NCBI GenBank assembly: GCA_017305635.1
Contig: JAFKKF010000006.1
Location: 682,001-746,000, forward strand
Length of the DNA: 64,000 bases
From: Hyphomicrobiales bacterium
GTDB taxonomy: Bacteria; Pseudomonadota; Alphaproteobacteria; Rhizobiales; Kaistiaceae
Reading direction: 5' to 3'
Below, piece after piece: positions 4,934 to 64,000 of the stretch (the first letter of the stretch is position 1; the number at the start of each line of letters is the position of its first letter). Both the position numbers and the translations under genes were made by a program. The notes beneath the pieces were generated by a model. That model ran no database searches, was not told the origin of the DNA, and saw nothing but the letters and a program-made list of their open reading frames with translations.

Positions 4934-6130
4934 ATGATCGTGACCCCGTACAAGTACCAGCGCTTCCAGTGGGACGACGCCCTTCTCCTCGGCGAGCAGC
5001 TCAGCGACGAGGAGCGGCTGATCCGCGATACGGCGCGCGACTATGCCGAGGAGAAACTGGCGCCGCGCGTGCAGGAGGCCTACGAGCGCGAGGAGACCGA
5101 TCCCGGCATCTTCCGCGAGATGGGCGAGCTCGGCCTCCTCGGCGTGACCCTGCCGGAGGAATACGGCTGCGCCGCCGCGTCCTACGTCGCCTACGGGCTG
5201 GTGGCGCGCGAGGTGGAGCGGATCGATTCCGGCTTCCGCTCGATGATGAGCGTGCAATCGTCGCTGGTCATGTTCCCGATATACGAATACGGGAGCGAGG
5301 AGCAGCGGAAGAGATACCTGCCGAAGCTCGCGAGCGGCGAATGGATCGGCGCCTTCGGGCTGACCGAGCCGGGCGCCGGCTCCGATCCGGACGGGATGCT
5401 GACCCGGGCCGAGAAGATCGATGGCGGCTATCGCCTGACCGGCTCGAAGACCTGGATCTCGAACGCGCCGATCGCCGACGTCTTCGTCGTCTGGGCGAAA
5501 TCGGCGGCCGATGGCGGGGCGATCCGCGGCTTCATCCTCGAGAAGGGGATGAAGGGGCTGACCGCGCCGAAGATCCGGAACAAGCTGTCGCTCCGCGCCT
5601 CGGTCACCGGCGAGGTGGTGATGGACGGGGTCGAGGTGCCGGAGACGGCGCTGCTTCCGAACGTGTCGGGCCTGAAGGGGCCTTTCGGCTGTCTCAACCG
5701 GGCGCGCTACGGCATTGCGTGGGGGACGATGGGAGCGGCCGAGGCCTGCTTCCACGCGGCGCGGCAATATGTGCTCGACCGCAAGCAGTTCGGCCGGCCG
5801 CTGGCGGCGACGCAGCTGGTGCAGAAGAAGCTCGCCGACATGGAGACCGAGATCACCCTCGGCCTGCAGGCGGCGCTTCGCGTCGGGCGCCTCTTCGACG
5901 AGCACAAGCTCGCCCCGGAAATGATCTCGCTGATCAAGCGCAACAATTGCGGCAAGGCGCTCGACGTGGCGCGCGCCGCCCGCGACATGCTCGGCGGCAA
6001 CGGCATATCGGGCGAGTTCCCGGTCATCCGCCACATGATCAACCTCGAGACGGTGAACACCTACGAGGGGACGCACGACATCCACGCGCTGATCCTCGGC
6101 CGGGCGATCACCGGCATCGCGGCGTTCTGA
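4934..6130 (+). CDS. gcdH: Glutaryl-CoA dehydrogenase (acyl-CoA dehydrogenase family)
   Basis: This FAD enzyme would oxidise and decarboxylate glutaryl-CoA to crotonyl-CoA in lysine, tryptophan or glutarate catabolism. It is 398 residues, a normal family length. Diagnostic segments are [18 protein letters not shown], the FAD-binding [14 protein letters not shown] and the C-terminal [15 protein letters not shown], in which Glu378 aligns with the catalytic base of glutaryl-CoA dehydrogenases. It is followed one base later by a CaiB-type CoA-transferase, the partner expected to make glutaryl-CoA from glutarate. Assignment to GcdH rather than a generic acyl-CoA dehydrogenase rests on these motifs and the neighbour. 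Confidence 0.9.
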
Positions 6131-50270: not shown

Positions 50271-52031
<1,761 letters not shown>

Positions 52032-52093
52032 GATGGCCAACGCCGCGGTGGCAGGCCGTCAGCACCGTTTCGGGACGCGATCCGGCGGAGGCC

Positions 52094-52339
52094 TTGGTAG
52101 GGCCAGGCGGGTCAGTCGTAGGGGCTCAGCCCGCCGCCCGCCCCACCGAAGGGGAGGCTCCGGACGCGGGCCTCCCCGATCTTCCCGGGGTCCCCTGGAT
52201 CCGCAAACGCCGGCGCCAATGCGCCTGGCCCCTCTGGGGCAACGGCCCGACGCCGATCTCCGAGAAGCGCTGCTGCGGCGAGCGTGTCGCCGGCACCGGC
52301 CCCTACTGCTCCGCCCATCGCCGGACAGCACGGCCGTGA
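52094..52339 (+). CDS. GcrA C-terminal-domain-like small protein (start uncertain)
   Basis: An 81-residue open frame ends with QCAWPLWG, then EKRCCGERVAG and GPYCSAHRRTA. This reproduces the C-x-W-P ... C-G ... Y-C-x2-H pattern of the C-terminal zinc domain of the alphaproteobacterial cell-cycle regulator GcrA, the part that contacts sigma-70. The N-terminal DNA-binding helix-turn-helix of GcrA is absent. The only start in reach is TTG at 52094 with a crowded GGAGG, so the gene may be truncated at the element boundary. The stop overlaps the next gene (GTGA). The domain call rests on the motif and no other support. Confidence 0.5.
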   Translation: MVGPGGSVVGAQPAARPTEGEAPDAGLPDLPGVPWIRKRRRQCAWPLWGNGPTPISEKRCCGERVAGTGPYCSAHRRTARP

Positions 52340-52989
52340 GCGGGGCTCGGCCGTCCCGGGCGGGGATGCGGAACGAGGCCTTCCTCGCCGGCCTGCCGCT
52401 CTACGGCTTTGACCTGATCATGGCGGACCCGCCGACGCGCTTCGCCACCCGCTCGGCGAAAGGCGACGAGAAGTCGCCGCAGGGGCAGTATCGCACCATG
52501 AAGATCGACGAGATCGCGATGCTGCCCATCGCGACGCTCGCCGCCCCCGACTGCGTGCTGTTCCTGTGGTGGACCTGGCCGCTCTTTCTCGCCAACGAGC
52601 ACACCCCGAAATGCGGCTTCGCCTATGGCGACCCGATCTACTCGCCGGTCGGCTACGTGCTCGGCGCCTGGGGGTTCCGCTACTACACCGGCGGGGCTTG
52701 GCTGAAGCGCACCCGCCGCGGAAAGGTGAGCTTCGGCACGGGCTACGGCCCGCGCAACGCCTGCGACCCCTTCATCATCGCCACCAAGGGCCGGCCGCTC
52801 AACACGCACGCCGAGCGCAATCTGATCGACGGCCTCGCGCGCGAACACAGCCGCAAGCCCGAAGAGGCCTACGCCTGGTGCGAGCGCTACCTGCCCGGCG
52901 CGCGCCGGCTCGACCTCTTCAGCCGCTACGACCGGCCCGGCTGGATCTCGGTGGGCGACGAGGCCGGCAAGTTCAACGGGGAGGGGTGA
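52336..52989 (+). CDS. MT-A70-family DNA N6-adenine methyltransferase (phage type)
   Basis: This 217-residue protein is similar to phage MT-A70 methyltransferases: YGFDLIMADPPTRFATRSAKG, LPIATLAAPDCVLFLWWTWP, KRTRRGKVSFGTGYGPRNACDPFIIATKG and RLDLFSRYDRPGW. They methylate adenine in phage or host DNA. The catalytic tetrapeptide reads DPPT instead of the usual DPPW, and the fourth residue normally stacks on the flipped base, so activity is uncertain. A GTG start at 52336 overlaps the previous stop; an ATG at 52366 is an alternative. Translational coupling favours GTG. Confidence 0.85.
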   Translation: MSGARPSRAGMRNEAFLAGLPLYGFDLIMADPPTRFATRSAKGDEKSPQGQYRTMKIDEIAMLPIATLAAPDCVLFLWWTWPLFLANEHTPKCGFAYGDPIYSPVGYVLGAWGFRYYTGGAWLKRTRRGKVSFGTGYGPRNACDPFIIATKGRPLNTHAERNLIDGLAREHSRKPEEAYAWCERYLPGARRLDLFSRYDRPGWISVGDEAGKFNGEG

Positions 52990-52993
52990 CGCC

Positions 52994-53203
52994 ATGGGGA
53001 AGGGGGGCGCTCATTCGGCGATGGCGCGGAAGGCCCGCATGGTGCGGCGGGCAACCGGCATGGCGCGCAACGAGCTGCGCCAGGAGCGCCAGACCGGCAT
53101 CCGCTTCTCCTGCAGCACCGGAGCGACCTCACCTCCGGTGAAGGGTCTGTCGCCGGAGCTCGCCGCGGCGATCGCCGACTTCCAGCGCCAGAGGCGGCCA
53201 TGA
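52994..53203 (+). CDS. Small basic phage-type protein, function unknown
   Basis: This 69-residue, strongly basic protein has an Arg-rich N-terminal half (ARKARMVRRATGMARNELRQ) and a C-terminal segment LSPELAAAIADFQRQRRP. It starts 5 bp after the methyltransferase stop, and its stop overlaps an ATG at 53200 (ATGA). An internal ATG at 53021 could be the true start. No family is recognised; small basic proteins of this kind are common in phage early operons and may bind nucleic acid. Confidence 0.5.
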   Translation: MGKGGAHSAMARKARMVRRATGMARNELRQERQTGIRFSCSTGATSPPVKGLSPELAAAIADFQRQRRP

Positions 53204-53212
53204 ACCGGGAGG

Positions 53213-53662
53213 TTGCTGGCGCTGCAGCAGGAAGGCAGCCTGATCGAGTACGCCGGCAAGGCAGGCAAGGACGTCGCCGGCGGGCACGCCCGCGCCATGA
53301 TCGACGGCCTCGCCAACGGGCTTCTCCGCCTCGAGGGCGCCGAGGCCTGCGCCCCCTACTTCTTCGCCTTGTCCGACCGCGTCTGCGGGGGCGTCAAGGC
53401 GCTGACCGTCCTTCCCGTGCCAGCCGCCGAGCCCGCAGCCATCGATCCTGCGGCGATTGGCGCGTCGGCCCTTATCGGCGAGGCAGCCGAACGGGACGCG
53501 AAGGATGCCGCGCCTGGCGAGCCAACGGAGGAGGCCGGGGCGCCAGCCGCCGCGCCGCCCGCGTCGCCGCGGTCGTGGCGTCCGGTCCTCGCCATCCTCT
53601 TCATCGTCCTCTCCATCGCCCTGGTCTGGCGGGCCGGCTTCGAGGCGGGGAGGTTCTGGTGA
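53213..53662 (+). CDS. Small membrane-anchored protein, possibly frameshifted at its start
   Basis: This 149-residue frame has an N-terminal helical segment (LALQQEGSLIEYAGKAGKDVAGGHARAMIDGLANGLLRLEG), a Pro/Ala/Glu-rich linker, and a C-terminal membrane helix (WRPVLAILFIVLSIALVWRAGF). It is therefore probably anchored by its tail. Its only start is a TTG at 53213 right behind GGGAGG. The ATG at 53200 that overlaps the previous stop is in another frame and would join this one by removing one G. A single-base error or frameshift is therefore possible. The stop overlaps the next gene as GTGA. Function is unknown. Confidence 0.5.
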   Translation: MLALQQEGSLIEYAGKAGKDVAGGHARAMIDGLANGLLRLEGAEACAPYFFALSDRVCGGVKALTVLPVPAAEPAAIDPAAIGASALIGEAAERDAKDAAPGEPTEEAGAPAAAPPASPRSWRPVLAILFIVLSIALVWRAGFEAGRFW

Positions 53663-53886
53663 GCCGGCACCTGCGCAAGCACGTCCGCCTCATCCTCGCC
53701 GAGGCGCAGCGTGCCGCGCGCGCCCATGGCTGCAGCGTGACGCTGGTCCCGGGGCACCATCACCAGAAGCTCGTCATCGACAACGGCCGCGGCACGCGGC
53801 GGGTGAAACCGATCTGCAGCAGCGACGGGGCCATGCGCTGGCAGATCCACGACGTCAGGAAGCTGGTCCAGGAAATCGCATCATGA
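53659..53886 (+). CDS. Small phage protein with HicA-like beta-hairpin pattern
   Basis: This 75-residue protein starts with GTG overlapping the previous stop and ends overlapping the next ATG. It has a helix (RHLRKHVRLILAEAQRAARAHG) followed by strands SVTLVPGHHHQKLVIDNG and TRRVKPICSSDG and a final helix (IHDVRKLVQEIAS). The arrangement recalls the double-stranded-RNA-binding fold of HicA toxins. The histidine cluster is placed differently, no HicB partner is nearby, and a toxin call is not justified. It probably binds nucleic acid; this is inference. Confidence 0.55.
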   Translation: MSRHLRKHVRLILAEAQRAARAHGCSVTLVPGHHHQKLVIDNGRGTRRVKPICSSDGAMRWQIHDVRKLVQEIAS

Positions 53887-54794
53887 AAAGTCCGCGCGGC
53901 CCGAAGTTGTCGGTCACGCCCGGCGACATCGCCACCGACCAGAGGCTCAATGCTTTCCAGTTGCGCGTGATCCTGTTCCTCGGCCGCCACACCGACCGCG
54001 ACGGCTGGTGCCGGCGGCGCCAGCGCTTCGTCGCCCAGGGCCTCGGCGTCAGCGTCCGCCACGTCAGCCGGACGATCTCGATCCTCCGCGAGCTCGGCTA
54101 TCTCGAGGTCCATGCCACCGAGGCGGACCACGGCGGCACCGGGGCATCCTGGTACCGCCTCGTCAGCCCGGCTGACCAGGGCGAACTCTTCGCGGAGAAG
54201 GAGGGGGACCCCCCGACAAGAATGTCCTACCCCCCCGACAAAAATGTCGTGGGGGGTACGACTCCCAGGGAGTCGTGGGGGGTACGACTCTCAGGGAGTC
54301 GTACCATAGAACGTGTTTCTCTGAACGATGGCTCACGGAGTGAGCCTCTTTGGAGCGGCGACGAGCGCCGCTCCGCCAAAGACGGCGACCACCGCCGTCC
54401 TCCGCCACGGAAGAAACCGGTCCCGGGCCAAGGCGAGCTTCTGAAGCCGACCCTCGCCGATGGCCGCATGCACGCGCCGACGCCGCGCGGGACGCGCCTG
54501 CCCGAGAACTGGGAGCCGTCCGAGCTCGACCGCGCCTTCGCCGAGCAGCAGGGCGTGCCGCCGCCCGAGATCGCGCGCCAGGCGGTGCGCTTCGTCAACC
54601 ACTGGCGATCGAAGGCCGGCCGCGAGGCGCTCGGCGCCGACTGGTCGGCCAAGTGGCGGAACTGGATCCTGAAATTCGTCGAGCTCGAGGAGGCACGACA
54701 TGCACGGAAACCTGCCAGCCGGGTCGAAAACCTCGCCGCCGCCTTCGGCGACCTTGCGGGCCGTCCTCGGCGCCGGCCGCCTGGTGACGGATAG
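53883..54794 (+). CDS. Phage replication-initiator-like protein (winged helix plus DnaT/O-like C-terminus)
   Basis: This 303-residue protein has three parts. Residues about 1-100 form a MarR/GntR-like winged helix (LNAFQLRVILFLGRHTDRDGWCRRRQRFVAQGLGVSVRHVSRTISILRELGYLEV). A low-complexity linker follows, encoded by tandem hairpin repeats. A C-terminal domain has LPENWEPSELDRAFAEQQGV, RFVNHWRSKAG and DWSAKWRNWILKFVEL, the pattern found in phage replication proteins and DnaT. The layout resembles lambda O, in which the origin lies inside the gene. The ATG at 53883 overlaps the upstream stop. It probably starts DNA replication of the element. Confidence 0.7.
   Translation: MKSPRGPKLSVTPGDIATDQRLNAFQLRVILFLGRHTDRDGWCRRRQRFVAQGLGVSVRHVSRTISILRELGYLEVHATEADHGGTGASWYRLVSPADQGELFAEKEGDPPTRMSYPPDKNVVGGTTPRESWGVRLSGSRTIERVSLNDGSRSEPLWSGDERRSAKDGDHRRPPPRKKPVPGQGELLKPTLADGRMHAPTPRGTRLPENWEPSELDRAFAEQQGVPPPEIARQAVRFVNHWRSKAGREALGADWSAKWRNWILKFVELEEARHARKPASRVENLAAAFGDLAGRPRRRPPGDG
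54209..54302. repeat. Two pairs of tandem hairpin repeats inside the replication gene (iteron-like)
   Basis: First pair: two adjacent 22-bp copies (54209-54230, 54231-54252) beginning CCCCCCGACAA and each holding a GACA...TGTC dyad. Second pair: two adjacent 26-bp copies (54251-54276, 54277-54302) beginning GGGGGGTACGACTC and each holding the palindrome ACGACTC(C/T)CAGGGAGTCGT; they differ by one base. Neither period is a multiple of three, so the repetition is selected at the DNA or RNA level rather than as peptide repeats. The position between the two protein domains is where lambdoid origins carry iterons. Confidence 0.75.
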
Positions 54795-57696: not shown

Positions 57697-58058
57697 TGTC
57701 GTCGCGGCACAAAGGCGAACCGTCGAAATTCGCGATCAACCGCGACTGGCCGCACCAGGTCGAGATCATCGCCACGCTGGTCCAGGCCGACTACGAGGCG
57801 ATGCATGCCTTCGCCCCCGAGCCGGTGATGGCACGCAGGGGCGGAACGTCGAGCTATCAACGCGGCTTCGACTTCCTTCGCTTCGCGTTTTCCGATCCGG
57901 AGGTGGCGGACGCCTTCCAGTTGCGCTTCGGCGGACGACGGGTGACGGTGAAGCTGGTCAAGAACCGGCAGGTCGACGACTGGGGTCCGCTTGGCGCGCT
58001 CGCCACGCCGCCGGTAGGGGGAAAGAGCAATGGTTTCGGGCTACGACAAGCATCCTGA
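57696..58058 (+). CDS. Small phage protein of unknown function
   Basis: This 120-residue protein has an N-terminal FAINRDWPHQVEIIATLVQADYEAMHAFA and a middle segment GFDFLRFAFSDPEVADAFQLRFGGRRVTVK. It overlaps the nuclease gene downstream by 29 bp. The block around FLRFAFSDPEVADAFQLRFGG resembles a common short prophage protein seen beside DNA-metabolism genes, but no biochemical role is known to me. Confidence 0.6.
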   Translation: MSSRHKGEPSKFAINRDWPHQVEIIATLVQADYEAMHAFAPEPVMARRGGTSSYQRGFDFLRFAFSDPEVADAFQLRFGGRRVTVKLVKNRQVDDWGPLGALATPPVGGKSNGFGLRQAS

Positions 58059-58545
58059 TCCGTCCGACTGGCGGGACTGGCTCGAGTGGCTGTTCGTCGT
58101 GGTCGTGCTCGGCGGGATGGTCTCCTGCACCGTGCTGACCCGCGCCAAGTCCGAGCCGGTCGCCTTCTCGCTGATCCGTGTCGATGACGGCGACACCATC
58201 CACCTGCGGGGCGACCCGCAGGGCATCCGCCTGGTCGGCTTCAATGCGCCGGAGAGCACGCAGCTGCGCGCGAAGTGCGAAGCCGAGCTTCGCATGGGCA
58301 AGATCGCCAAGGCTCGCCTGAAGCAGATCCTCGAGCGCGCCAGCATGATCGACCTGCAGCCGGTGGCCTGCGCATGCAGGCCCGGCACCGAAGGCACCAA
58401 CCGGTGCAATTTCGGGCGGCGCTGTGCCTACCTGGCGGCCGACAGCGTCGACGTCGGTGCGATCCTGATCAAGGACGGGTTGGCCGAGATCTACCGTTGC
58501 GGAAAGACCCGGTGCCCGCCGGTGCCCCGTCCGTGGTGCCGATAG
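58030..58545 (+). CDS. Membrane-anchored SNase-like (thermonuclease) protein
   Basis: This 171-residue protein has one N-terminal membrane helix (WLEWLFVVVVLGGMVSCTVLT) followed by a staphylococcal-nuclease fold. SLIRVDDGDTIHLRGDPQGIRLVGFNAPES carries the calcium-site Asp and catalytic Arg/Glu pair, and a later GRRCAYLAADSVDVGAILIKDGLAEIY holds the second catalytic-region Arg. Several cysteines (ACACRPGTEGTNRC, CGKTRC) suggest disulfides on the periplasmic side. It probably degrades DNA or RNA in the periplasm. Its start lies inside the preceding gene. Confidence 0.78.
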   Translation: MVSGYDKHPDPSDWRDWLEWLFVVVVLGGMVSCTVLTRAKSEPVAFSLIRVDDGDTIHLRGDPQGIRLVGFNAPESTQLRAKCEAELRMGKIAKARLKQILERASMIDLQPVACACRPGTEGTNRCNFGRRCAYLAADSVDVGAILIKDGLAEIYRCGKTRCPPVPRPWCR

Positions 58546-60166: not shown

Positions 60167-61027
60167 TCAGACGGCGGCGGCGCGGGCGTTCGAGATGATG
60201 AGCTCGCCGGCGCGGCGGACGCGCTCGGCGCCTCCGGCTGTATAGGTCACCATCGCCGGCTCCTGCCGAAATCCTGCAAAGATCGACCGGATGTGTTGCG
60301 TGTCGCTGATCGTCAGGAGGAAGTTGCCCTTCAGCCGCCTGAGATGTTCGACGAGCTCGGCATGCTGCGCGGCGTCGAAGACGTCGCGGCCGTAGTAGTA
60401 CTCGGAGCCGCTGTACGGCGGATCGAGGTAGAAGAGCGCACCCGGACGGTCCCAGCGCGCGAGGAATTCCTGCCAGGGCAGGCACTCGATCCAGACGCCG
60501 GCGAGGCGCTCGTGCGCGGCCGCGAGGATCGGCTCCAGCTTGCCGATGTCGAAGCGGGCACCCGCGGTCATGCTGGCCCCGAAGCTCCTCGAGACGACCT
60601 TGCCGCCAAAGGACAGCCGCTGGACGTATAGGAACCGCGCCGCCCGCTGCAGGTCGGTGAGGCGGTCCGGATCCTGGGCGTTGAGCCGGGCGAACTCGTC
60701 GCGGCTCGAGAGCTGCCAGCGCAGCATGTCGAGGAAGGCCTGGTAGTGGTTCTGGAGGACGCGGAAGAGGGTGGCGACGTCCCGGCTGACGTCATTGAGG
60801 ACCTCGACCTTGGGGGCGAGGCGGCGGCGGAAGAAGACGCCGGCCATGCCGGCGAAGACCTCGCCGTAGAGAAGATGTGGGGTTTTCTCGATTCGGGCCG
60901 CGAGCTCGCCGGCGAGCTGTTTCTTGCCGCCGATGTAAGGAGCGACCGGCTTGGCCGCCGCGACGGGATGGAGGGCAAACGAATCCTTGCCCTGTGGCTG
61001 CAAAGGCCGCGGATTGGCTTCAGGCAT
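60167..61027 (-). CDS. D12-class DNA adenine methylase (Dam-like)
   Basis: This 286-residue S-adenosylmethionine-dependent methyltransferase has the D12-class motifs APYIGGKKQLAGELA (cofactor site), EVFAGMAGVFFRR and the catalytic FYLDPPYSGSEYYYG. The internal segment LYVQRLSFGGKVVSRSFG is also typical of phage Dam proteins. Phages use these to protect DNA from restriction or to time replication. The ATG at 61027 gives the usual length; the open frame extends to 61168 without a conserved sequence. It is the second adenine methyltransferase in this element. Confidence 0.9.
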   Translation of the reverse strand: MPEANPRPLQPQGKDSFALHPVAAAKPVAPYIGGKKQLAGELAARIEKTPHLLYGEVFAGMAGVFFRRRLAPKVEVLNDVSRDVATLFRVLQNHYQAFLDMLRWQLSSRDEFARLNAQDPDRLTDLQRAARFLYVQRLSFGGKVVSRSFGASMTAGARFDIGKLEPILAAAHERLAGVWIECLPWQEFLARWDRPGALFYLDPPYSGSEYYYGRDVFDAAQHAELVEHLRRLKGNFLLTISDTQHIRSIFAGFRQEPAMVTYTAGGAERVRRAGELIISNARAAAV

Positions 61028-61141
61028 TTTTTCTCTCGGGGAAGGCACGCTGCCGCCCGCTCCGGACCGGAGCACGAGCGGCGGGGCGGCGTTATCCGAG
61101 TGGTCGTCGGGCGGGGTCGAGGCTGCAATCTGGGCCCCGCT

Positions 61142-61185
61142 GCCGGGCTGAAACCCGGCCCCCGCCACGCGGATCCGCGGCGGGG
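61142..61185 (-). terminator. Two hairpins between leftward phage genes
   Basis: GCCGGG/CCCGGC (61142-61159) is followed by a larger stem with arms starting CCCCGCC and ending GGCGGGG (61160-61185, with a small bulge). They lie between the 84-residue gene and the methylase gene. They could be a terminator or an attenuator, but no T-run is seen. Confidence 0.4.
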
Positions 61186-61709: not shown

Positions 61710-61978
61710 CAGGCTACCCTTCGCTCGCCGCCGGCGATCGACATCACCTCGCCACGCACTTCCTCTTCGAACGGAATGAGCCGGTAGATCATGGTCCCGA
61801 GGTCTGAGAGCCGGCGGAGCCGTTCGTTCTCCTCGCGGAGCTTGCGCTCGAGGAAGGCGGTCGGGCCCGACTCGTTGATGACGCTCCGGAGCAGCGCGGC
61901 CCGCTCGGCGCCGAACTGGACGGCGACGAAGAGGTCGTCGGCGAGCTCCGCGAAATTGGCGGCGGGGAGGATCCTCAA
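61709..61978 (-). CDS. Small coiled-coil phage protein
   Basis: This 89-residue helical protein has AANFAELADDLFVAVQFGAERAALLRSV and a heptad-like ERKLREENERLRRLSDLGTMIYRL. The start is TTG at 61978, overlapping the Gam stop (TTGA); no ATG is available. It may act with the Gam-like protein, but that rests on position alone. Confidence 0.55.
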   Translation of the reverse strand: MRILPAANFAELADDLFVAVQFGAERAALLRSVINESGPTAFLERKLREENERLRRLSDLGTMIYRLIPFEEEVRGEVMSIAGGERRVA

Positions 61979-62520
61979 GCCGCGCTTGCTCCCTCGGCCG
62001 GCGGCCGGTCGGCGAGCGCGGCCGCGACCGGCTTGATCGTGAAGCTTTCGCCCGGCGGCACGAAGGCGAGCCCCTTCAGGCGGGCGAGCCTCTTTCGCTC
62101 GGCCTCGGTCGCCGCAAGGATGCCCTGCGTGCTGATCGACCGGGTCACCTTGATGAAGCGGCCGAGGCGCATCTTCGTCAGCGCCGCCAGCAGCTTGTCG
62201 ACCATGGAGTCGTCGACCTGCAGCTTCTCCTTGCCGAGGCGCCAGGACACTTCCCCGGTGGCGAAGGTGACGGTCTTGGTCTTCCCCTCGGACGTCAGCC
62301 GCGGACGGTTGGCGGCGCAATAGGCCGCCACCTTGGCCTCGAGCTCGGCCCGCTCGCCCTGAAGCGGCGTGGCGGAGTCCTCGGCGATCTTGGTGGCAGC
62401 GGAGACCGCCGCGGATTTCTTCGCCTCGATCGCGGCGAGGTCGCGGTCGATCTCGCCCATGCGGCCGATCGCGGCCGCGCAGGCATCGTCGTCAGGGAGG
62501 ACGGGGAGGGCGTCAGTCAT
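61975..62520 (-). CDS. gam: Host-nuclease inhibitor Gam (Mu-like)
   Basis: This 181-residue protein is similar to the Mu Gam family, which binds DNA ends and blocks host exonucleases, and is related to Ku. It has a coiled N-terminal helix (MGEIDRDLAAIEAKKSAAVSAAT), the conserved TVTFATGEVSWRLGKEKLQV and a C-terminal GLAFVPPGESFTIKPVAA. It is the first intact gene of the leftward operon. MuA, MuB and repressor genes, its usual neighbours, are not in the window. Confidence 0.88.
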   Translation of the reverse strand: MTDALPVLPDDDACAAAIGRMGEIDRDLAAIEAKKSAAVSAATKIAEDSATPLQGERAELEAKVAAYCAANRPRLTSEGKTKTVTFATGEVSWRLGKEKLQVDDSMVDKLLAALTKMRLGRFIKVTRSISTQGILAATEAERKRLARLKGLAFVPPGESFTIKPVAAALADRPPAEGASAA

Positions 62521-62699
62521 GGCTTCCGATCAGGTCGAGGCCGCGAGGCCCTGCGCGCCAAGGATACGCCGCCTCGGCTGGGGCGGGCGTTGAAGTCTCG
62601 TCGCGCTCAGCCGATCTCGGGCCGAGATTTGAACTGGACGGGCGGGTACTCGCCTCTTACTCTTGGTTGCATACCGCAACGGAAGCCGGGGGGCTGCCC
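62521..62699. other. Element boundary region
   Basis: Immediately upstream of gam, the minus strand reads the last dozen codons of another gene (ending RILGAQGLAAST, stop near 62530), which then merges into unrelated sequence. A palindrome ATCTCGG-G-CCGAGAT lies at 62614-62628. The rest shows no gene. It probably marks where the phage-like region was truncated or joined to the polysaccharide locus. Confidence 0.4.
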
Positions 62700-63320
62700 G
62701 TGTATTGTGTATTCGGCGCCGGAGGACATGCGCGAGACTTGCTCGGCCAGTTGGCCGAGCTGGCTCCGAACGCCGTGGCTGTACTGGTGGACGAGATCGC
62801 GCCGGACCGCGAACTTTGCGGGGTCCCCGTGGTATCGCTTGACGAAGCGCTTGCCGCCCACCGAAATCTCCCTTGGCTGATCGCTCTCGGCGATCCTCAA
62901 TCACGCTCGCTGGCCGCCGCCAAGTTGCGGGAGAGAGGGGCAACTTTTGGGCGCTTCCTCAGCAAGCGTGCCTATCTAGCGTCCGACGCCAGGATCGCTG
63001 ACGGAGCGCAGGTCTTCGCCGGCAGTTCCGTATCTTCCAACTCTGAGGTCGGCTTCGGCGTGATCCTCAACTTCAATTGCTCGGTGTCGCACGACTCTCA
63101 CCTCGGCGAATTCGTCACTCTCTCACCCGGCTGCACGATTGCAGGCCGGGTGAGGATGGGCGCCCGAACATTCATAGGAGCCGGCGCTACCATCGCCCCA
63201 CGCCGGCTCGGTCAATCGCTGACTATTGGGCCTGACGCGATCATCGGCGCGGGAGCGCTGGTCATCAATGATGTGCCGCAGGGTGCGCGATTCGCCGGGG
63301 TGCCAGCCAGACCAATGTGA
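62700..63320 (+). CDS. PglD/NeuD-family sugar O/N-acyltransferase
   Basis: This 206-residue protein has an N-terminal Rossmann-like part (VYCVFGAGGHARDLLGQLAE) and a left-handed beta-helix of hexapeptide repeats (ASDARIADGAQVFAGSSVSS, VILNFNCSVSHDSHLGEFVTLSPGCTIAGRVRMG). Such enzymes acetylate amino sugars or sialic-acid-like sugars of surface glycans. The GTG at 62700 starts the conserved sequence; a TTG at 62667 would add 11 residues. His in SVSHDSHLG fits the catalytic position. Its stop is 7 bp before the aminotransferase gene, so they form an operon. GC content is lower than in the host genes. Confidence 0.85.
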   Translation: MYCVFGAGGHARDLLGQLAELAPNAVAVLVDEIAPDRELCGVPVVSLDEALAAHRNLPWLIALGDPQSRSLAAAKLRERGATFGRFLSKRAYLASDARIADGAQVFAGSSVSSNSEVGFGVILNFNCSVSHDSHLGEFVTLSPGCTIAGRVRMGARTFIGAGATIAPRRLGQSLTIGPDAIIGAGALVINDVPQGARFAGVPARPM

Positions 63321-63327
63321 GAAGTGA

Positions 63328-64000
63328 ATGCTGTTCGTAGCCCGCCCCATTGCGCCAGACCTTGAAACACTTTCCCGGTACCTGAAGGGCTGCATCGAGC
63401 AGCGCCGGTTTACGAATGGTGGCCCGCTTGAAGCGACGCTAGAGCTGCGCCTTCGTGAACTCCTCTCCGCGAGGCACCTGTGCCTTGTCACCAACGGAAC
63501 CGTAGCAATTACCCTGGCCCTTACGGCGCTTGGCATTCGCGGGCAGGTGATTACCACCCCCTTCACGTTCTCCGCCACCACGCATGCCATCATTCATGCG
63601 GGAGCGGAGGAAGTGTTCGTCGACGTTGATCCCGTGACGTTGACGATTGATCCGAAACTGATTGAAGCCGCGATCACCCCCGAAACAGAGGCCATCGTAG
63701 GCGTCCATGTCTATGGCATTCCATGTGCGGTTGACGAGATCAGCGCCATTGCGAAGAAGCATGGATTGGCCGTGATCTACGATGGCGCTCACGCATTCAA
63801 CATGACCTATCGTGGCACGCCGATCGGCCGCTTTGGCGATGCCACAACTTACAGCTTCCACGCGACAAAGCTCTTCCACACCGCTGAAGGAGGAGCCATC
63901 GAAGCCAACAGTTCCGATCTCGCCGAACGCCTCCGGCTGCTGCGGAACTTTGGTATCGAATCTGAAGACGTGATCACCGCATGTGGAACCAACGCCAAGA
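63328..64000 (+). CDS. DegT/DnrJ/EryC1-family sugar aminotransferase, 3' truncated by window end
   Basis: The visible 224 codons encode the N-terminal part of a PLP-dependent keto-sugar aminotransferase: FTNGGPLEATLELRLRELL, CLVTNGTVAITLALTALGI, TTPFTFSATTHAII, VIYDGAHAFN with the PLP-contacting Asp, and SFHATKLFHTAEGGA with the internal aldimine lysine. Such enzymes make the amino sugar that a PglD-type acyltransferase then acetylates, and that enzyme is encoded just upstream. The gene continues beyond the window. Lower GC is consistent with a surface-polysaccharide island. Confidence 0.9.
   Translation, partial: MLFVARPIAPDLETLSRYLKGCIEQRRFTNGGPLEATLELRLRELLSARHLCLVTNGTVAITLALTALGIRGQVITTPFTFSATTHAIIHAGAEEVFVDVDPVTLTIDPKLIEAAITPETEAIVGVHVYGIPCAVDEISAIAKKHGLAVIYDGAHAFNMTYRGTPIGRFGDATTYSFHATKLFHTAEGGAIEANSSDLAERLRLLRNFGIESEDVITACGTNAK

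Follow-up and report, generated by a model that had tools for sequence, protein, structure and literature searches.

A short open reading frame (ORF) with the zinc pattern of the GcrA sigma-interaction domain (SID) adjoins an MT-A70 adenine methyltransferase gene in a 64,000-nucleotide stretch of a Hyphomicrobiales genome (the window). This arrangement raises the question of whether a mobile element makes a SID-only regulator together with its own methylase or whether the pair is a remnant of something larger. An earlier sequence-only reading of the locus favored the former and proposed a new type of phage control system. In GcrA, DNA-binding residues 1–45 are followed by a linker and by the SID (residues 108–173), which binds sigma domain 2 (PMC7403470). 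The 4.43 Mb host genome (G000) encodes one full-length GcrA and contains a strong match to a CcrM-type N6/N4 methylase.

The ORF carries a predicted GcrA sigma-interaction domain

The plus-strand frame at 52094–52339, which opens with a TTG, contains the elements C-A-W-P, C-C-G and Y-C-S-A-H (its translation reads ...LPDLPGVPWIRKRRRQCAWPLWGNGPTPISEKRCCGERVAGTGPYCSAHRRTARP up to the stop codon). The SID proper (LPDLPGVPWI...CAWP...CCG...YCSAH), as delimited by alignment, model and a weakly positive coding score, occupies 52169–52336. It follows the conserved C-x-W/F-P, C-G/A, Y-C-x2-H pattern and retains every invariant column of our SID alignment (A2). The ORF is not a whole GcrA protein in the sense of PF07750, that is, HTH plus SID above the curated cut-off: the Pfam GcrA profile scores it below threshold (E = 0.0049, 17.7 bits for a cut-off of 26.9) and aligns only at profile positions 108–145, in the SID part, and the NCBIfam score is likewise under its cut-off. 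A second search, of the six-frame translation of the window, used a SID profile that we derived from phage and host sequences other than those of the window. This profile retrieved the ORF with E = 8.9e-11, whereas the next candidate in the window reached 0.29 and the best match in the reversed window 0.93.

An AlphaFold model computed from a 24-sequence alignment has 42 of 80 residues at pLDDT ≥90, with block means of 87–95 from residue ~31 onward. The top three Foldseek matches to this model are all chains of Caulobacter crescentus GcrA (5yix_B, 7ye1_G and 7ye2_G), and the best-listed, 5yix_B, has a TMt (by target length) of 0.76, a probability of 1.00 and an E value of 0.048. Profile and model thus agree with the domain call of the sequence-only reading, which had proposed such a structural comparison, and they identify in the ORF a genuine GcrA SID that is predicted to be complete as a domain. 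The window ORF shares this sequence pattern and fold with host GcrA (PDB 5yix, 7ye1 and 7ye2) but, as was also recognized earlier, has no DNA-binding part. The N-terminal DNA-binding domain, the linker and the host 'GDP' stretch are all absent, and the AYQP tail conserved in host SIDs is replaced by ARP-stop. The nearest viral relative of the window SID, on contig L225 (42% identity), is also SID-only and also starts with TTG.

Coding signal and start sites of the two genes

TTG 52094 is the earliest usable start in the SID frame, and a GGAGG lies merely two bases from it. The codon-usage score drops to noise directly after the stop of the upstream aldo/keto reductase gene (52031), falls below zero in all frames across about 52046–52130 and is weakly positive in the SID frame only from about 52142 to 52322; codons 1–25 of the ORF score −12.9 bits. 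Downstream of TTG 52094, the SID frame offers no ATG, GTG or TTG before the domain begins, nor any at the signal onset near 52142, and we found no promoter-like site in 51900–52500. With no start codon at the onset of the coding signal, the SID ORF is not confirmed as a gene with its own start.

The methylase gene (52366–52989, plus strand; PHROG 359) is real: its product matches PF05063 with E = 2e-23 and 83.4 bits (cut-off 23.9) and is ~50–55% identical to enzymes of viral contigs L002–L008. The GTGA overlap described earlier is formally present, as GTG 52336 could serve as the start. However, the coding signal in the methylase frame becomes strongly positive from about 52358, and the enzymes of relatives begin 22–26 residues ahead of their DPPW motif, which fits ATG 52366. 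Because both observations agree, ATG 52366 is the more likely start. At the catalytic motif [D/N]PP[W/Y/F] the window enzyme has DPPT; the last position is W in 42 members of an alignment of 45 sequences, one of which is the window copy itself (L082). The enzyme is otherwise well conserved, with 3 of 55 near-invariant positions changed (the median among relatives is 1). Judged from this motif, the methylase may be impaired.

The pair lies at the edge of a prophage that looks defective

The mobile-element setting proposed earlier was right. The pair lies at the left boundary of a prophage of ~44 kb, which extends past the window and runs from ~52032 to a tRNA-Ser(CGA) gene at C20:778,012–778,101, with the integrase adjoining this other end. 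The order from the left is early genes, a D12 methylase and Gam (minus strand), a sugar/glycosyl block, endolysin, tail, head, terminase (minus strand), arsenic-type genes and integrase. Within the window, the pair is followed by small early ORFs (52994–53886, plus strand), the last of which (53659–53886) has syntenic homologues in the prophages of genomes G015 and G009. Further on lie genes for a replication-initiation or primosomal protein (53883–54794, plus strand; PHROGs 3992 and 1408), a nuclease of the staphylococcal-nuclease fold (58030–58545, plus strand; PF00565), a D12-class adenine methyltransferase that is kept in syntenic prophages (60167–61168, minus strand; PF02086) and a Mu Gam-like protein that is syntenic in relatives (61975–62520, minus strand; PF07352). 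Two blocks resemble cargo. Acyltransferase, DegT aminotransferase and glycosyltransferase genes between the early and late regions (window 62667–64000 and L194:4668–9431) are possibly surface-sugar cargo, and aquaporin-type, low-molecular-weight phosphatase/ArsC-type, DUF6428 and ArsR-type genes between the late region and the integrase (C20:~774,400–776,550; L366:16933–19045) look like arsenic-resistance cargo.

The last host gene ahead of the prophage edge encodes the aldo/keto reductase (51045–52031, plus strand), whose product has NCBIfam oxidoreductase matches and, within this bacterial family, homologues at 69% identity. We searched the junction stretch that follows (52032–52140) for repeats, tRNA ends and coding signal. 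Neither the left edge nor the rest of the genome has a copy of the 3′ end of the tRNA-Ser gene, and an exact-repeat search found no att-like or other direct repeat pairing the two prophage edges; the left end therefore looks broken rather than a clean attL. Homologues of the aldo/keto reductase in genomes G013 and G026 sit in other neighborhoods, and this comparison yielded no empty site. Nucleotide relatives of the element's left part were not notable and were confined to the D12 part.

Elsewhere in the element, a single 725-residue ORF (L366:11594–13771, minus strand; C20:769,093–771,270) matches TerL over residues 19–485 and portal protein over residues 502–709; because one ORF matches both, it points to an internal deletion that fused the two genes. 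No HTH_3 repressor was found within C20:734,000–778,000. With an integrase present, a second att site and an HTH_3 repressor missing, and TerL fused to portal, the prophage looks defective.

L185 is a syntenic prophage of genome G015, from a different genus within this bacterial family. Its genes run GcrA, MT-A70, orfC, D12 (minus strand), Gam (minus strand), in the order seen in the window. Its GcrA has 207 residues, contains HTH plus SID and scores 53 bits, above the Pfam cut-off. The two loci differ in the methylase, which in L185 has a longer ORF located about 1.1 kb downstream, and in that a GapR-like gene stands directly upstream of the L185 GcrA gene, whereas in the window the aldo/keto reductase takes the place of this gene and of the HTH half. 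On the basis of the L185 arrangement and the coding signal, we read the SID ORF as a 5′-truncated remnant. We found no orthologue close enough for a dN/dS estimate.

The early region of L185 has further features. The GapR-like DNA-binding protein (L185:5065–5325; PF10073, 119.8 bits) overlaps the GcrA homologue (5322–5945), and two host cell-cycle or chromosome regulators adjoin there. NMT1-like (PF16868) solute-binding-type proteins with an N-terminal hydrophobic stretch are encoded among the phage early genes of both L185 (10008–10892) and L225 (1650–2528), in the latter directly upstream of the SID-only gene.

GcrA-type genes adjoin MT-A70 genes in other phages

The earlier reading had called for a survey of prophages for the same gene pair. 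Scans for MT-A70 relatives in viral and bacterial contigs yielded 213 distinct loci, 23 of which have a GcrA-type (SID) gene within the fetched flanks, always on the same strand. A D12-anchored control found a SID gene in 0 of 27 distinct loci, a contrast that is suggestive only, given that early genes cluster anyway; because both are early genes, the nearness of SID and MT-A70 genes is weak evidence of a link. A DnaB-based control scan found only itself, and conservation was too low for the SID alignment to serve as a viral scan query. Among the 23 loci, six besides the window have a direct stop/start overlap or TGATG-type junction between the two genes, with the GcrA-type gene first in L107 and L256 and the MT-A70 gene first in L238, L242, L251 and L252. 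In 50 whole viral records sampled by MT-A70 only, a SID is clearly present in six (E ≤ 2.8e-12, leaving aside two weaker matches at E ~ 2e-4), and in none of these does it overlap the methylase gene.

SID-only genes without an HTH occur in three other viral lineages (L225, L226 and L251/L252). Like the window ORF, they encode a SID without HTH in an early region, and those of L251/L252 are also coupled to MT-A70. Unlike it, they have clean starts, stop/start overlaps and undisturbed operons: the L225 gene starts with TTG, that of L226 has ATGA junctions on both sides and those of L251/L252 follow MT-A70 through ATGA. Other phage proteins (L107, L116, L228 and L256) carry one or several HTH units before the SID, and the version with several units is an architecture absent from host GcrA. 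Both genes occur intact and next to each other in related viruses, and a functional GcrA-type/MT-A70 pair is plausible.

Phage GcrA homologues as such are known, from phage phiCbK (gp222; PMC3556154) and Agrobacterium phage Atu_ph08 (gp5; PMC6630229), which, like the window, have a GcrA-family gene on an alphaproteobacterial phage. The published account places the phiCbK homologue in the Pfam GcrA family (PMC3556154), whereas the window copy is below the cut-off, SID-only and at a broken prophage edge, and for neither homologue is a pairing with an MT-A70 gene described. Sinorhizobium phages encode CcrM-like (GANTC) methylases (PMC5537653) that, like the window enzyme, are phage adenine methylases encoded near replication genes and are thought to mimic host epigenetic control, but they have an NPPY/F/W motif in place of DPPT. 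In the literature searched, which covered few subscription journals, we found no description of a phage GcrA/MT-A70 pairing.

Discussion

We consider it probable (roughly 70%) that a phage GcrA-like gene survives here only as its 3′ part, the SID ORF, with its 5′ half lost, and that the pair is vestigial. The 5′ half would have gone when the left prophage end was deleted or rearranged as far as the aldo/keto reductase gene of the host. Intact relatives may work like GcrA, in that the HTH half would locate (methylated) promoter DNA and the SID would bind sigma-70 domain 2 and so recruit host RNA polymerase to chosen promoters, and the m6A methylase encoded by the phage MT-A70 gene in the same early region may mark those promoter sites. 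The window copy would have lost its targeting half, has no good translation start and adjoins a methylase with DPPT for DPPW, and for these reasons the pair is most likely vestigial; we infer both that the ancestor had an HTH and that function was lost. The sequence-only reading had itself named a truncated remnant without a start as the outcome that would count against it, and this largely describes what we found. Its picture, in which a regulator was built from the SID alone and coupled to a methylase of the same element, is unsupported for the window copy, given the broken edge of a defective prophage and the unconvincing start. The methylase has also lost the aromatic residue of the DPPW motif.

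The relic reading has to accommodate the complete SID of the window, which could still belong to a short real gene, the otherwise well-conserved methylase and the intact SID-only genes of other phages, among them the nearest viral relative with its TTG start. The complete SID with its high-confidence model, the clean starts or overlaps of the stand-alone genes in the three other lineages and the GcrA-type/MT-A70 overlaps in L107, L256, L238 and L242 would favor an intact SID-only protein that is made with the methylase. Such a protein would bind sigma-70 domain 2 with no targeting to DNA and adjust host RNA polymerase in favor of phage promoters, and the methylase would mark the DNA. We regard this as rather unlikely for the window, where no start codon stands at the onset of the coding signal, the signal upstream is non-coding, the GGAGG is only two bases from TTG 52094, and the edge position, the prophage defects and the DPPT motif all argue for decay. 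A broader proposal, in which alphaproteobacterial phages carry a 'private GcrA/methylase' two-gene module (a GcrA-type sigma-70 cofactor, sometimes SID only, translationally coupled to MT-A70) and the window pair would be a SID-only example that still works, appears distinctly doubtful.

The same arguments on expression and decay weigh against a dominant-negative role, in which the SID would compete for sigma-70 with the GcrA of the host and so upset cell-cycle control by GcrA and CcrM. The full-length host GcrA, the CcrM-type match and the SID fold match speak for this role, but the ARP-stop stands where the host-type tail would be, and we consider this reading highly improbable. A spurious ORF in GC-rich DNA, which could be argued from the sub-threshold Pfam and NCBIfam scores and the weak codon signal, is scarcely credible: the E value of 8.9e-11 from the independent profile, against a background of 0.3–0.9, refutes it, and the fold match also speaks against it.

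Read as a probable relic, the window locus matters little in itself, and its value is as a pointer. The suggestion of a new phage control system is unsupported for the window copy, but it gains from the intact SID-only genes and overlapping GcrA/MT-A70 pairs of other alphaproteobacterial phages. Phage GcrA homologues are usually mentioned singly; here they accompany about one in nine of the MT-A70 loci, at times overlapping the methylase gene, and several lack the DNA-binding half. If the intact pairs cooperate, phages would steer host RNA polymerase through a methylation mark that they write themselves, and the SID-only forms would test whether binding to sigma-70 domain 2 alone suffices.
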